NCBI RefSeq assembly: GCF_000949635.1
Contig: NZ_BAFN01000001.1
Coordinates: forward strand, 3,035,052-3,099,051
DNA length: 64,000 nt
Origin: Candidatus Brocadia sinica JPN1
Lineage (GTDB): Bacteria > Planctomycetota > Brocadiia > Brocadiales > Brocadiaceae
Direction: 5' to 3'
Positions 6,425 through 20,255 of this stretch are shown one piece after another. The stretch's first letter is position 1. The number at the start of each line of letters is the position of its first letter. The notes under the pieces were generated by a model. It ran no database searches. It worked only from the letters and a program-made list of their open reading frames with translations, and was not told the DNA's origin. The translations under genes and the position numbers were made by a program.

Positions 6425-7141
6425 CTACCTTCCTACCTTCACGGTCACAGTAGTCCTCAAGCCACTGGCTGTCTTGAATTTCACCTTTGCATTACCTGTC
6501 TTCTTCGTAGCCGTAATCGTAAATATAGCCTCACCGCCAGCATCGGCATTTTGGCTTAACGGTGTAACCGATATGCGCCTCTTACCAGACTTAATCTTCG
6601 CCGTTACCGTTTCACCCACAACCGGGCAACCTTCGCTGCCCGTCACCGTTACCGTTACGTCACCACTCTCCTCCCTCTGGAGCTTCAGCGTTTTCGGAGA
6701 CGCCTCTATAGACTCAGCTTCACATACGGGTGTAGGTGTTACCATAGGCGTTGGTGTGGCTTCTAATGTAGTAAAGAATTTTTCATTTCCATAAACCATA
6801 GGCAAGGGTGTGCCTGGTAGGGTGTCATGTCCAGCTATCCTATAGTAATAAGTTGTCGCAGCCAATAGCCCGCTTATCCTGGCGCTTACCTCTTTTTTGC
6901 CTGGAAACCAATCCTGTACTGACTCTGCAGTAGTATAATACCCACTGCCGGTACCGTATTGAAACCCCAGCTCCGGAGCACGCCCACTAATAACAGTGCC
7001 GTGTAACGTTGCGGAGTTTGATGTTATATCCGTTGCTTCGCCCGTTTCTAACTCCATTGCAGATGATATATTTGAACCCAAAATGAACACAACACAACCA
7101 AGTAGCAAACAATATTCAATCCTGAACAATATGTTTCTCAT
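6425..7141 (-). CDS. Secreted protein with fibronectin-III-like and Ig-like domains
   Basis: A 238-residue protein with a strong Shine-Dalgarno (AGGAGGAGG) upstream of the ATG. A signal peptide spans about residues 8-28. A fibronectin-III-like domain (about 30-120; DITSNSATLHGTV, LLAATTYYYRIAG) is followed by a Thr-Pro linker (TPTPMVTPTP). A C-terminal beta-sandwich (about 145-238) resembles invasin/Big_1-type domains. There is no catalytic motif, so it probably has an adhesive or structural role outside the cell. It precedes the broken carbohydrate-binding gene and may share its transcript. Confidence 0.75.
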   Translation of the reverse strand: MRNILFRIEYCLLLGCVVFILGSNISSAMELETGEATDITSNSATLHGTVISGRAPELGFQYGTGSGYYTTAESVQDWFPGKKEVSARISGLLAATTYYYRIAGHDTLPGTPLPMVYGNEKFFTTLEATPTPMVTPTPVCEAESIEASPKTLKLQREESGDVTVTVTGSEGCPVVGETVTAKIKSGKRRISVTPLSQNADAGGEAIFTITATKKTGNAKVKFKTASGLRTTVTVKVGR

Positions 7142-7718
7142 ATTTTGTACCTCCTCCTTTTGGTTCGTAACAGTACTTTGTTAAAAGTTAAGTGGCCAAT
7201 TTTTCTACTGAATTATACTTTATATCTCTCTGAAAAAGTATCTGATACTACGGGATTAGTAACTATTTTATCTGTGCCATTTCTTCCCCTTATATCTGAC
7301 AGGCTTTATTCCCATCTTTAGCATCTTTATGGTTCCATTGACGGCCATCAGTTTTGTTTGTCCTGGTCTTCCAATATACGATAATCGCATCCCCTCCGTG
7401 CACTCATAAACTATGAATTATGCAGAAATAATTGTATAATTTTCAGAAACCATTCTTTTACAGAAAACGGCAATGTAAATACATTAATATTTCTGAGGCA
7501 GCAATATACCACAAAACACGTATAAATACAAACCAGCGAATGATTCAACTTGAGAGGATCTTCTTTGCATGAATAGAATTGACACTATTTATTTCGTTGT
7601 TTAAACGGACAAAACCGATTATAAAATATCAATAGCACATCCTTTGAAATCGATAAAGATATCAAAATGTATATCTTGATTTGCATGGTAAGATTTACAC
7701 TATCGCTTACAAAGAGAA
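7142..7718. other. Intergenic region, no supported gene
   Basis: 577 AT-rich bases without a convincing gene. A 40-codon minus-strand frame at 7268-7390 (MRLSYIGRPGQTKLM...) looks protein-like but has poor start signals and may be a degraded gene. It probably contains the divergent promoters of the flanking genes. Confidence 0.5.
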
Positions 7719-8771
7719 ATGATTCGAATGCGGGCTGTACAAACAGTTATTCCCGTTACTATTATCCTCGTTCTTATCCTTGGTGGAGTATGGTTTATTA
7801 TGCTTCGAATGCCGGGTAAAAGATATCAGGGGCCGATGCCTTCCCTGACGGAAGAACAAAGATTATTACGGGAAATGTTACGGAAAGATGTGTATAAACT
7901 TGCCGATGAGATCGGCGACCGCAATGTCAGAACGAATTACGAAAATCTTTGTGCTGCGGCTGATTTTATTGAGGCATCGTTGCAACAGACAGGATATAAA
8001 GTCGATCGACAGGGCTATGAAGTGAGTTTAAGTGGTCTGCAAGGTCGAACGTGTTATAATCTCGAAGTGGAAATCACCGGTTCAGAAAGATCTGGCGAAA
8101 TTGTGGTAATTGGTGGGCACTACGACTCGCTCGAAGACACACCAGGGGCCAATGACAACGCATCGGGAACGGCTGCAGTTCTGGCATTAGCACGCGCTTT
8201 TGCTGGTAAACAAACTGTGCGGACACTTCGTTTTGTTACCTTCGTCAATGAAGAGCCGCCCTATTTTCAAAGTAAAGATATGGGCAGTTGGGTGTACGTG
8301 AAACGGTGCCGTCAACGGAACGAAAACATCATCGGCATGCTCAGCCTGGAAACTATCGGATACTATTCCGACGAAAAATGGAGTCAGAATTACCCCGTCG
8401 CTCCTCTGGGTCTCGTTTATCCAACTGCGGGAAATTTTGTGGCATTCGTTGGAAATATCAAATCACGTAAACTGGTGCGGGATGTAGTGGGATTGTTTCG
8501 CCGCTATGCAGAATTTCCATCTGAAGCAGCAGCATTACCAGAAATGCTTGTAGGCGTGGGCTGGTCTGACCAATGGGCATTCTGGCAGGGAGGATATCCA
8601 GGGGTTATGGTGACGGATACCGCACCTTTCAGGTATCCCTATTATCATACTCAGGAAGACACCCCTGACAAAATCGATTACGACCAGCTTGCATACGTGG
8701 TGAGCGCCCTGGAAAAGGTCGTGGCAGGCCTTGCGGGTTGTAAGCATGAAACCAGTAGGGTAAACAGATAA
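7719..8771 (+). CDS. M28-family zinc aminopeptidase, membrane-anchored
   Basis: A 350-residue protein. Residues 10-30 form a hydrophobic signal-anchor (VTIILVLILGGVWFIML), placing the catalytic domain in the periplasm. The co-catalytic two-zinc site of family M28 is complete: GGHYDS (His, Asp), PGANDNASG (bridging Asp), VNEEPP (catalytic Glu-Glu), LETIGY (Glu) and YYHTQEDT (His). Family members remove N-terminal residues from peptides or act on glutaminyl termini. The pseudouridine synthase gene follows 25 bases later, so the two may be co-transcribed. Confidence 0.9.
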   Translation: MIRMRAVQTVIPVTIILVLILGGVWFIMLRMPGKRYQGPMPSLTEEQRLLREMLRKDVYKLADEIGDRNVRTNYENLCAAADFIEASLQQTGYKVDRQGYEVSLSGLQGRTCYNLEVEITGSERSGEIVVIGGHYDSLEDTPGANDNASGTAAVLALARAFAGKQTVRTLRFVTFVNEEPPYFQSKDMGSWVYVKRCRQRNENIIGMLSLETIGYYSDEKWSQNYPVAPLGLVYPTAGNFVAFVGNIKSRKLVRDVVGLFRRYAEFPSEAAALPEMLVGVGWSDQWAFWQGGYPGVMVTDTAPFRYPYYHTQEDTPDKIDYDQLAYVVSALEKVVAGLAGCKHETSRVNR

Positions 8772-16750: not shown

Positions 16751-17095
16751 TTAAATTTCTATAGTTACAGAGTCATTACAGAAAGGAGTTTCAATCCATT
16801 TTTTTACCTCCTTGAAAATAGCAATCCTTCCTTGAAAGGCCGCCTCGAATTCATTTGTAGATTGTTCGAAATTGAGAGGCGGTATGATAAACTTCTTAGA
16901 TAATGGACCTTTTCGGACTTCGAATGCTAAAGGTTTTTCAGAGAAAAAACAAATACCTTCTTCCATATTCCATGTTCTGAGTCCTGTAATAGCTTGGGAA
17001 AGACGAGCACCCCAACGAATCCTTTTGCCATCAAGGGTAGCTTCAACATAAGCTTTGCCTCTTCTCGTAATCTTTCTATTAAGAATAATCTTCAT
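16751..17095 (-). CDS. Small hypothetical protein, third gene of nuclease-like cassette
   Basis: A 114-residue basic protein starting MKIILNRKITRRGKAYVEA with a ribosome-binding site (AAAGGA). The N-terminal half looks like small beta strands (KAYVEATLDGKRIRWGARL). No family is recognised. It begins 10 bases after the stop of the metallo-beta-lactamase gene, so it is the last member of a three-gene minus-strand operon. It could be a nucleic-acid-binding accessory or an inhibitor of that cassette; this is inference. A plus-strand frame that overlaps it antisense was rejected. Confidence 0.6.
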   Translation of the reverse strand: MKIILNRKITRRGKAYVEATLDGKRIRWGARLSQAITGLRTWNMEEGICFFSEKPLAFEVRKGPLSKKFIIPPLNFEQSTNEFEAAFQGRIAIFKEVKKWIETPFCNDSVTIEI

Positions 17096-17105
17096 CGTGT
17101 CCTTT

Positions 17106-18383
17106 CTATAGTTCTACAGTTTCCTTATCTCTCACAATCATGATGTTATTCCCAAGATATTCACAATATCTTTCGGGATAAAAAGTATGGAATGGAATAA
17201 CATATCTGGGATTTATTACTTTGACAAATTTTTGTAATTCTTCAAGGTAAGCATGACCGCTTGCATGAATTTCTATAATAGGTACATTATGTTCAGTCCA
17301 GAAAGATTTAATTTTTGGCAAGTATCCTTTCCATAAAGAATAGATGAGTATCGTATCAGTCAGGTTTTTTGCAAACCTCATTCTCATCTTATGGGAATCC
17401 TTGATTACCAATTTGTCCCTCTTTTCCAATATTTCGGGGTAAGTTATTTTGGCAGATTTGTATTTGTATAAACTATGATCTTTTCCCATTTTGCCCGTAT
17501 AACTGTTACTTAGAAAGAATATCTTAATATTCTTACCCCAATTATACTGCGGAATATTTGAAGAAATCTTTTTTAACTTATCCAGTACATAGGCAGTGTA
17601 AGGATCAATTACAAAAATACGGTCACTTCCAAGACATGCACGATATACAGAAACGATCCTGTCTATATTCTGGGATGAACAAGCTACGAAAAATAGTTCC
17701 TTTCCATTCTTGAATAATTTCGCTAATTCGTTTTCGATATCGTTTTCAGTCTCATATATTCCCTTGTTTCTGCCAATTAAAGTACCTTCAAGGATCAAAT
17801 AATCAATGTTCTTCGGAGGATTTTTTATGATGTTTTTGAACAAAGTGCCCTTTCTTCCATGTCCTCTAAAATCACCTGAGTAAAAAATCTTTTTCCTTTC
17901 ACTTTCAATCAAATATGCAAATGCATCAAATCCGGAATGATCAACCAGATAAGGGGTTATTTTAAAATTTACATGTTCAAATGATTGCCATGGATTTATT
18001 GTCTTAACATTTTTTAAATCACAATCGGTTTGATTAAAATAGTGAGAAATTCCAATGAGTTCTTTGCATCCCTCACTGAGATAAATGGGGATTATTGGAT
18101 TGATAAAGGATAATAAACCGTAGTGATCGGGATGCGGATGGCTTAAAAGGACGGCGTCAAAAAGATGTGCTTCGTTTGCGTATAACCCTTTGATATCTGG
18201 CAAAACACCTTGTTTTATGAGCTCTTCGATGGACTGGCTTTCTATTCCCCTGGAATCGAATTGTTGTTTACTTTCGTTTACCAAAGGCAGTCCAAAATCT
18301 ATCAATATCCGGGAATTCCTTGCTTGAAGTTCAATGCAAGTTCCGCCGATTTCTTTTGAACCTCTTTGAATTGTGAGTAACAT
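17106..18383 (-). CDS. Beta-CASP metallo-beta-lactamase fold nuclease-like protein
   Basis: A 425-residue protein. The MBL core has LSHPHPDHYG (HxHxDH zinc motif, about residue 80), LVDHSGFDAFAY (third His) and FYSGDFRGHG (bridging Asp). The C-terminal half carries the beta-CASP signatures IEIHASGHA (motif B) and VIPFHTFYPERY (motif C His). This architecture is that of RNase J/CPSF-73-type RNA or DNA processing enzymes, though it is shorter than RNase J (about 550) and lacks its C-terminal domain. It lies between a PD-(D/E)XK-like gene and a small gene with 7-10 base gaps, so it acts in that cassette rather than as general RNase J. Confidence 0.82.
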   Translation of the reverse strand: MLLTIQRGSKEIGGTCIELQARNSRILIDFGLPLVNESKQQFDSRGIESQSIEELIKQGVLPDIKGLYANEAHLFDAVLLSHPHPDHYGLLSFINPIIPIYLSEGCKELIGISHYFNQTDCDLKNVKTINPWQSFEHVNFKITPYLVDHSGFDAFAYLIESERKKIFYSGDFRGHGRKGTLFKNIIKNPPKNIDYLILEGTLIGRNKGIYETENDIENELAKLFKNGKELFFVACSSQNIDRIVSVYRACLGSDRIFVIDPYTAYVLDKLKKISSNIPQYNWGKNIKIFFLSNSYTGKMGKDHSLYKYKSAKITYPEILEKRDKLVIKDSHKMRMRFAKNLTDTILIYSLWKGYLPKIKSFWTEHNVPIIEIHASGHAYLEELQKFVKVINPRYVIPFHTFYPERYCEYLGNNIMIVRDKETVEL

Positions 18384-18390
18384 AACTAAG

Positions 18391-19248
18391 CTAAATCGCT
18401 TTTTTTAAATTTACGGAATTGTTCAATTGAATAACTTTTAATTCAGGTGCTTTTTGTTTTAACTCTCTTATTTGTTTATCGGCTATTTTTGAATAAGCAC
18501 CAACGACGATTAATCCAAAAACGCCATCGACTATATTGATTTTTAAGCTGTTGTTCATAAGACCAAGTTCCTGCTTTTGTTTAATATTAAGTTCGTAACA
18601 TGTTTTGTAATCCCCAAAGTTATCCTTAATCCTTTTGACATATCCTCGAAGTTGTTCAATAACATCTTCCTTCAAATCATTATTGTTGCCTAACTTGACC
18701 TCAATAGGATAAAATTGGTAATCATTTCCATTTATTTGCACAAGGGATAATAGATCCAATCTGGTATTATCGGTCTTATCAATAATTTGCCTATCGATAA
18801 TAACAAAATCTGATCTATTCGCGTTATCGGTCATTATCATTTGTTCAAAAATGGTTTCTTCCTGGAAACCAACTTTCTTTATGCATGAGCAAAATTCTTT
18901 AAGATATTTATTTTGAAATAATGGATGTAGGTGATTATTTGGAATTTTCAAACAAATATAGTCACCCCGTTTATATTGGTTTTCAGTAAATCGTCGATCC
19001 TTTGCTGCAGTGGTTCCCAAAAAGAATTTTTTATTTATTCTCACTTCGTACATCTCTTTGACTTTAGGAGTTACTTTAGCAAGGCTATTTCCTTTATAAT
19101 AAAGATTGAAATAGTTGTTCCTTATTTGTAAATCATATTCAAAACCAGATTTGATAATCTTATCGATCAAAAATTTGAAGCCTGATTTAATCCTTTCTAA
19201 TACATCTTCAGAAAAATATCTTCTAATTGACGAATGAGGAAATGTCAT
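18391..19248 (-). CDS. PD-(D/E)XK nuclease-like protein
   Basis: A 285-residue protein of no named family known to me. Within it, RLDLLSLVQ followed about 13 residues later by FYPIEVKLGNN forms the D...ExK signature of PD-(D/E)XK endonucleases. A glutamine-containing helix (EDVIEQLRGYVKRIK) comes next, as in archaeal and restriction-type nucleases. The N-terminal 150 residues may bind substrate. It is the first gene of the operon with the beta-CASP protein, 7 bases away. The pairing of two nuclease folds suggests a defence or DNA-processing role; that is inference. Confidence 0.65.
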   Translation of the reverse strand: MTFPHSSIRRYFSEDVLERIKSGFKFLIDKIIKSGFEYDLQIRNNYFNLYYKGNSLAKVTPKVKEMYEVRINKKFFLGTTAAKDRRFTENQYKRGDYICLKIPNNHLHPLFQNKYLKEFCSCIKKVGFQEETIFEQMIMTDNANRSDFVIIDRQIIDKTDNTRLDLLSLVQINGNDYQFYPIEVKLGNNNDLKEDVIEQLRGYVKRIKDNFGDYKTCYELNIKQKQELGLMNNSLKINIVDGVFGLIVVGAYSKIADKQIRELKQKAPELKVIQLNNSVNLKKAI

Positions 19249-19529
19249 ATAATTCCTTTAAAATAGCTAGCAAGTAAAAAGAGGGACATTGGTTATATGG
19301 AAGGCGTTAGTAAGGATTATCGGGATGTTTGTAAAATAATTTAGTCAAATATGTAGTTCTTTTAGAAGTATATAAAAAAGTCGAGTAGGATGGGGTTAAA
19401 CGGAGTGAACCCATCAGAACAATGGTTTTGTTGGATGCGCTTTGTTTCATCCAACCTATACAACTCAACGCCATTGATCAGGCGTTCAATCTAAAGGTTT
19501 GCACGAAAATGAAAACATATGAAAAATCT
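19249..19529. other. Intergenic region with a dispersed AT/GC element
   Basis: No gene is seen. A segment at about 19383-19465 (GAGTAGGATGGGGTT...ACCCATCAG...TTGGATG) resembles the GAGTAGGATGGGTC...ACCCATCA piece at about 52312-52345, so it is probably another dispersed repeat. Confidence 0.4.
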
Positions 19530-19557
19530 TTGCAAAAAAGAGATAATGTATTATAAT
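19530..19557 (+). promoter_or_regulatory. Sigma-70 promoter for the 31-residue peptide gene
   Basis: TTGCAA (19530-19535), a 16-base spacer and a perfect TATAAT (19552-19557). It would start a transcript of about 200 bases ending at the terminator at 19725-19770. Confidence 0.6.
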
Positions 19558-19615
19558 TTTATGAAATCGTATTTTATAACAATAACCACTTTTTTTGAAA
19601 AGGAGGAGGTATTGT

Positions 19616-19711
19616 ATGTGTACGACATGTGCGAAACATAACCCTGGCGGAAAAAAGAAGATGGAAGAACCAGAAAAGAAAAAGACAGGTGAAAAGGAAA
19701 AAAAGAAATAG
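19616..19711 (+). CDS. 31-residue CxxC, lysine-rich small protein
   Basis: ATG at 19616 is preceded by a perfect AGGAGG at optimal distance and by a consensus -10. A stem-loop terminator follows the TAG. The peptide starts MCTTCAKHNPGGKKK, then is almost all Lys and Glu. The CxxC-AKH start could bind a metal. The complete set of expression signals makes a real, well-expressed small gene likely. Its function is unknown and no family is recognised. Confidence 0.7.
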   Translation: MCTTCAKHNPGGKKKMEEPEKKKTGEKEKKK

Positions 19712-19724
19712 AAAAGATAAAAGA

Positions 19725-19770
19725 AAATCCCCTCCGATAATTACAGACTTATTTACCGGAGGGGATTTTT
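19725..19770. terminator. Bidirectional intrinsic terminator
   Basis: A 12-base stem, AAATCCCCTCCG...CGGAGGGGATTT, is followed by a T-run on the plus strand, and by TTTTCTTTT when read on the minus strand. It serves the small peptide gene and, from the other side, rnpB. Confidence 0.85.
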
Positions 19771-19775
19771 GTTTA

Positions 19776-20177
19776 AGTAGACTATAAGCCGAGTTCTGTC
19801 GTGGACGGTCATTTATCTAGCCTCGTTGTTGCCAGCGAGGTCAAACGGCTTACCCAGAGGTTCTAGCGAAGCGGACCACTTCATCCCTCCCTATTTAGCC
19901 TTTCTCCCAGTGGGGTTTGCCATGCCTCCGATGTCACCACCGGAGCGGTGGGCTCTTACATTAAGTCGATACTTGCCCCTGTATATTTTCAACAGGGAAC
20001 GACCCCGCCATTTCACCCTTATCCCGCCAGAAGGCGGGACGGTATATTTTCTGTTGCACTTTCCTTCCCGTCACCGGGACTCCGCGTTACGGAGCACTGC
20101 GTCCTGTGGAGCTCGGACTTTCCTCCCGTTCCTTCTCTATCAGAGATGCGTTGGAACCGACGACCGTCTTGTCCACT
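19776..20177 (-). ncRNA. rnpB: RNase P RNA (class A)
   Basis: About 402 nucleotides. The minus-strand RNA contains GAGGAAAGTCCGAGCTCC near its 5' side (CR-I core) and GACAGAACTCGGCTTATAGT at the 3' side, both hallmark RNase P elements. The ends pair as P1 (AGUGGAC with GUCUACU), which sets the boundaries. The RNA is the catalytic part of RNase P, which trims 5' leaders of tRNA precursors. It ends at the shared terminator and lies downstream of the zinc-ribbon gene, rpoD and dnaG. Confidence 0.95.
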
Positions 20178-20255
20178 TTAACGTTAAGAAATTCAATATG
20201 ATACCCTGTACACACTTCGTTCATCGTGACGTCATTCCGGGTAGAGTTAAGGCAT

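Follow-up and report, generated by a model that had tools for sequence, protein, structure and literature searches.

What is the function of two nucleases of different fold that are encoded side by side between core genes of a bacterial genome? The question is raised by a cassette in a 64,000-nucleotide stretch of the Candidatus Brocadia sinica JPN1 genome (contig NZ_BAFN01000001.1, positions 3,035,052 to 3,099,051), termed here the window. The cassette consists of three open reading frames on the minus strand, genes A, B and C, with gaps of 7 nt between A and B and 10 nt between B and C. The evidence presented below suggests that A and B make up a two-gene module that spreads horizontally and most likely serves in defence against phages or other mobile elements, an explanation in which we place somewhat more belief than doubt.

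Two nuclease folds between core genes

An earlier note on this DNA described the cassette as a compact operon between core genes that encodes two different, tightly linked nuclease folds, and this description holds in both respects. One flank is formed by recG and a small following gene. On the opposite flank, the cassette adjoins the RNase P RNA gene (19769-20180, minus strand; class A, 277 bits), which is followed by the genes for a CT398-like coiled-coil protein and rpoD. The spacer between gene A and the RNase P RNA (19249..19768) is the border between cassette and core genome and the expected site of any A-B promoter. A promoter consensus scan of the spacer gave weak matches only, no more than in shuffles, and consensus promoter and terminator scans performed no better than on shuffled sequence. 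The GC content is ∼32–36% in the cassette versus mostly 39–47% beside it. No defence neighbour was found for the window copy of A-B, which is not in an obvious defence island.

Gene B (17106..18383, minus strand) encodes a beta-CASP metallo-beta-lactamase nuclease of 425 amino acids and is the constant member of the pair. Pfam detects Lactamase_B_2 and RMMBL in the protein, and the AF2 model, built with 62 sequences, has a pLDDT of 93.8 and a pTM of 0.91. The best PDB matches are EF2904 (2az4; Z 39.4, rmsd 2.5, 387 residues aligned) and RNase J (Z about 31–34), both over the whole length, residues 1–425. Type VII Cas14 structures also match over the whole length (Z 31.8), and there is a full-length match to CPSF73. 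All 62 homologues compared have H82, H84, D86, H87, H149, D171, E199, H377 and H399, and B should therefore be an active enzyme. Motif II reads HPHPDH at residues 82–87 (18123..18140, minus strand), with HxHxDH invariant in the 62 homologues. Motif B is the SGH at residues 375–377 (17253..17261, minus strand), which aligns with the SGH of RNase J and has S375 in 61 of the 62 in addition to the invariant H377. Motif C is represented by the invariant H399 (17187..17189, minus strand), a residue of the RNA type. A histidine in motif C correlates with RNA substrates, whereas valine is present in DNA-specific beta-CASP enzymes (PMC4770246; PMC7458816). The motif-C histidine thus suggests an RNA substrate for B; some beta-CASP ribonucleases degrade single-stranded DNA as well (PMC4770246).

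The two-domain core shared with RNase J and with EF2904, a protein of unknown function, extends over all of B and includes the SGH and the motif-C histidine. However, B is not RNase J. The end of the chain is the end of the core, where the RNase J C-terminal domain would start, and its absence had been pointed out in the earlier note; B also scores 82 bits with TIGR00649 against an NCBIfam cut-off of 400, is sporadic, and is tied to a PD-(D/E)XK gene.

Gene A (18391..19248, minus strand; 285 amino acids) is the exchangeable partner, a PD-(D/E)XK nuclease that carries an N-terminal domain of its own. No Pfam or NCBIfam family model matches it above cut-off, the best PADLOC match, PDC-S18, is weak (2.5e-4), and Foldseek used alone gave no significant match (best E 9.6e-3). 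The assignment rests on VIA-align comparisons together with conserved residues. In the AF2 model (20 sequences; pLDDT 91, pTM 0.88), an N-terminal domain is followed by a PD-(D/E)XK domain at the C-terminus. The latter, residues 127–285, shares the common core fold with EndoMS/NucS (Z 11.1, rmsd 3.0, 108 residues aligned) and Can2 (Z 9.3), and also matches E. coli SduA (Z 7.8) and McrC (Z 7.5). The active site comprises E131, D165, E183xK185 and Q199xxxY203. The earlier note had expected a D and an ExK in one active site of the protein. Structure prediction agrees: catalytic D165 and E183/K185 (18694..18756, minus strand), which are conserved in partners, lie in the canonical place on the adjacent strands 163–173 and 176–186.

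The N-terminal domain, residues 9–126 (18871..19224, minus strand), resembles YdhG/DUF1801 (2oc6, Z 8.3) and the MotA DNA-binding domain (Z 7.0), although Z values of this size can arise by chance. Its motif IRxNYxNxYYKGxSL is kept in 20 relatives, and the domain is possibly a recognition domain. A HigB-like toxin was considered for A and rejected; the Pfam match (E 0.02) covers the N-terminal part only and is under the cut-off.

Linkage of the beta-CASP gene with PD-(D/E)XK partners

A search with an alignment of six B proteins yielded at least 521 relatives and, among the matches listed, 80 B loci in genomes of many phyla. Six B loci were found in viral contigs by the alignment scan, and none in a scan of these contigs with the single B protein. 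Plasmids have full-length B matches of about 35% identity, and a plasmid search with A gave none. The family as a whole ranges over many phyla and includes an archaeon as well as plasmids and viral contigs. Together with loci found earlier, the alignment search gave a total set of 93 B loci; the B match of an Enterococcus-like plasmid (L015), an EF2904-type gene that adjoins an ABC transporter, was left out.

In 71 of the 93 loci, B is directly preceded by a gene of at least 190 amino acids. This upstream gene usually overlaps B or nearly touches it; its end falls in a range from 86 nt past the called B start to 134 nt ahead of it, and the commonest spacing is a 4-nt overlap (21 loci). The strict pattern D-x(n)-ExK is present in 50 of these 71 upstream partners, compared with 33 of 354 other, size-matched open reading frames from these loci and with 6.4 of 71 expected after shuffling, an excess beyond chance. 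Inspection and alignment identify about 65 of the 71 as PD-(D/E)XK proteins. At some other B loci the PD-(D/E)XK gene is downstream, one gene away, or split, and about 28 of the 93 either have no clear neighbour of this type or are truncated at the end of a contig. In an alignment of 66 partners, from which six neighbours showing no resemblance were left out and which, as aligners do, favours motifs, the only near-invariant columns are D165 (66/66), E183 (66/66) and K185 (65/66); E131, Q199 and Y203 are common. A separate observation concerns the partner in L096 (7372-8004), where E replaces the catalytic K (EVE); this protein is perhaps an inactive or altered nuclease.

The partners are diverse and comprise many families among which BLAST detects no relationship. 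It places them in groups of 31, 7, 7, 5, 4, 4 and 4, with smaller groups and many singletons. Pfam gives hints, all weak, of PDDEXK_9, YhcG_C, HSDR_N_2, SduA_C, PDDEXK_4 and others, and the PADLOC models matched, also weakly, are PDC-S11, PDC-S18, PDC-S02 and Cas4.

An independent sample of 294 genomes spread evenly over the phylum points in the same direction. B was counted at E<1e-100, where the next match was at 1e-10, and an A4-type partner at E<1e-10; B matches at about 1e-10 or weaker are generic metallo-beta-lactamases and were left uncounted. B is present in 11 genomes, the A4-type partner in eight, and both in six (Fisher p=1.5e-8). A PD-(D/E)XK gene sits beside several of these B genes in upstream, downstream or convergent position, so that the A–B linkage is not bound to a single gene order. 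Genome G233 has the A-type gene and B on different contigs, and some B genes have no recognised partner.

Gene C (16751..17095, minus strand) is a real open reading frame for a basic protein of 114 amino acids that is co-directional with A and B. It has no relatives in the family libraries (Pfam, NCBIfam, PHROGs), in plasmids, in viral contigs or in the 294 phylum genomes, and no homologue was found at the other loci of the 93-locus set. Gene C is thus an orphan outside the conserved module, its role as a conserved third component is ruled out, and the conserved unit is A plus B. The earlier proposal of a three-gene cassette linked in other genomes therefore stands for A and B and fails for C. 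In a different branch, represented by plasmids of Cereibacter and Prevotella, B overlaps at its 3′ end with a gene for a metallophosphoesterase (L012 7209-7865, L014 7449-8018), possibly a third component there.

Exchange of partners and mobility of the genes

The history of the pair was followed with a tree of 88 B proteins, made by a quick method, on which eight partner groups were mapped, the largest of them joined transitively. The groups require 28 changes on the tree, compared with a minimum of 7 and a mean of 30.8 for shuffled labels; values as low as 28 occurred in 7 of 200 shuffles. The distribution of partner families over the B tree is therefore close to random, and partners have been replaced repeatedly. 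In several close B pairs that have different partners, the stretch of similar DNA sets in exactly at the start codon of B. In the pair L049/L046, for example, 89% identity extends over 6864-8170, where B is 6867-8171. Further close pairs are L053/L057 (84%), L097/L023 (80%) and L004/L096 (89%). The boundary implies one of two events, replacement of the entire partner gene with B kept in place, or movement of the entire B gene. Close B pairs with different partners have dN/dS values of about 0.07–0.16, which indicates purifying selection on B.

Directly past the B stop codon, some loci have short conserved stretches (such as GCCCTACAACAA ... TTGGGC) that recall integron attC sites. They are found at L054 2877-2936, L058 5076-5135, L049 8172-8231 and L046 5649-5708. 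If these stretches are attC sites, some pairs of the A-B type may be integron cassettes.

In one alternative, the PD-(D/E)XK proteins would be stand-alone defence nucleases, Shedu-like and others, to which B attaches as an accessory effector. Such an origin would fit the weak resemblance of the partners to different known kinds (SduA_C, YhcG_C, PDDEXK_9 and HSDR_N_2; PDC-S11, PDC-S18, PDC-S02 and Cas4) and the confinement of the L049/L046 match to B, from start to stop, and a precedent exists in pairs of metallo-beta-lactamase nucleases with proteases (PMC12799240). However, the phylum sample shows a strong tie of A-type partners to B, and we consider this origin unlikely; its difference from a mobile A-B defence module is mostly a matter of which gene moves.

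Within the genus, the stretch between the RNase P RNA and recG is variable. Among ten congeners, A is present only in G009 and B in none. In most congeners a 2-oxoacid oxidoreductase operon adjoins the RNase P RNA instead, and the other congeners compared have neither A nor B at this place. The G009 copy of A is 98.95% identical to that of the window, versus 87–95% for neighbouring features, and the A–RNase P RNA spacer is 93% identical. This points to a later exchange of A than of the core, although selection could contribute to the difference. B is absent anywhere in the G009 assembly, which is 99% complete, though the contig ends beside A. Because this end lies in repeated sequence, G009 probably lost B by insertion or deletion, unless the gene is in an assembly gap. 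The sequence at the contig end (L122 1-141) is repeated at least three times in the genome and abuts A exactly at the expected B start; it probably marks one edge of an insertion sequence responsible for the loss of B.

The G009 locus has a bearing on a second alternative, an addiction pair of the toxin-antitoxin type. The toxin would be the nuclease A, or whichever protein has replaced it, and B would neutralise it, for instance through destruction of the transcript or product. The small size and overlap of the two genes, their mobility and their sporadic occurrence would suit such a pair, toxic nucleases are often part of these systems, and A precedes B in most loci. On the other hand, the intact A in G009 is without B, although the contig ends there, and this argues mildly against A as a toxin that needs B. 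A usual toxin and its antidote co-vary, but here one type of B serves many unrelated partners, and the catalytic site of B is intact. An addiction pair appears quite improbable, more so than a defence nuclease with an attached B. Ordinary nucleic-acid processing or repair by two unrelated, co-transcribed enzymes is slightly less probable again, for although both folds are also known in enzymes of RNA turnover and DNA repair, the sporadic presence of B (11/294), lateral spread, partner replacement and defence neighbours are unexpected of housekeeping genes.

Possible defence context and relation to known systems

In place of these alternatives, the defence reading fits the WYL regulators, the defence neighbours, the sporadic distribution, the presence on plasmids and the low GC content; it is inferred from context and evolution. 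WYL regulators are found immediately upstream of the pair in L013, L090, L091 and L096; one is upstream of B in L019 and one is divergent in L014. BrxR-type WYL regulators are associated with defence systems (PMC9122601). Among 146 neighbour proteins of B loci, seven match WYL, and 131 PADLOC families were matched at 1e-8. By comparison, 130 control proteins from the window's phylum matched 35 PADLOC families, for the most part redundant PD-T4-6 and PDC-S01 models that each had two members, with no WYL among the control families listed; as the control is small and comes from other genomes, the difference is support and not proof. Three further genomes of the phylum have open reading frames next to B that look WYL-like by eye (L168 3575-4213, L171 3068-4108, L173 3735-4292).

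If A and B act jointly in defence, the division of labour might be as follows. A, the exchangeable part, would detect the invader, or nucleic acid from it, and introduce a first cut, and the PD-(D/E)XK partner would probably set the specificity. B, the constant part with its RNase J-like beta-CASP catalytic core, would be expected to cut or chew RNA, and possibly also single-stranded DNA, and would finish the process by degrading RNA or exposed ends. Partner families would be replaced as targets change. A substrate common to both is not obvious, as the motif-C histidine suggests RNA for B and most PD-(D/E)XK enzymes cut DNA. Tentatively, and at a little below even confidence, we propose a widespread but undescribed class of prokaryotic immune system in which an invariant beta-CASP nuclease of the RNA type is combined with an open-ended set of unrelated PD-(D/E)XK partners that give target recognition. 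Partners would be exchanged gene-precisely at the B start codon, and specificity would evolve by swaps of whole partners.

Several known systems are partly similar. Shedu (SduA) is a single PD-(D/E)XK nuclease with a variable N-terminal part, and in addition to the structural match of A, another partner matches SduA_C at 4.7e-4. However, Shedu is a one-gene system that has no beta-CASP partner, and the likeness of A is structural only, as SduA_C (DUF4263) was not found in A up to E=1. The closest concept is that of the HamM/canu pairs of defence loci (PMC12799240), in which a metallo-beta-lactamase nuclease has recurrent partners, as B does. Those nucleases resemble ComEC-type DNA-uptake enzymes and pair with trypsin-like or caspase-like proteases, whereas B is of the beta-CASP type and pairs with PD-(D/E)XK proteins; no protease gene is beside B in the window, where the neighbours are A and the family-less C. 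As an immune use of a beta-CASP nuclease, CRISPR type VII comes nearest (PMC10910872); there, Cas14 provides immunity against RNA. Unlike that system, A-B in the window has no Cas5, Cas7, Cas6 or repeat array beside it. An assignment to this system fails, given an NCBIfam cas14 score of 25.7 against a cut-off of 800 and neighbours that are A and C only. The PADLOC candidates PDC-S18, PDC-S11 and PDC-S02 are weakly similar to A and some other partners, but neither B nor its pairing with genes of these types is represented in PADLOC.

The combination, which the earlier note did not recognise as a named system, has no name in Pfam, NCBIfam, PADLOC or PHROGs. A literature search of incomplete coverage, and therefore weak as evidence, found no description of the A-B pair. 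The components belong to known superfamilies; the pairing with exchangeable partners is absent from the libraries tested and the papers found, and there is a fair chance that A-B is a class of its own. The main point beyond the earlier note is that the PD-(D/E)XK partner is swapped for unrelated ones while B is kept. If A-B is a defence module, it would add a large, sporadic family that is unnamed in PADLOC, Pfam and NCBIfam, and the combination of a constant nuclease with a swappable partner would be a natural experiment on the split between recognition and execution in immunity.
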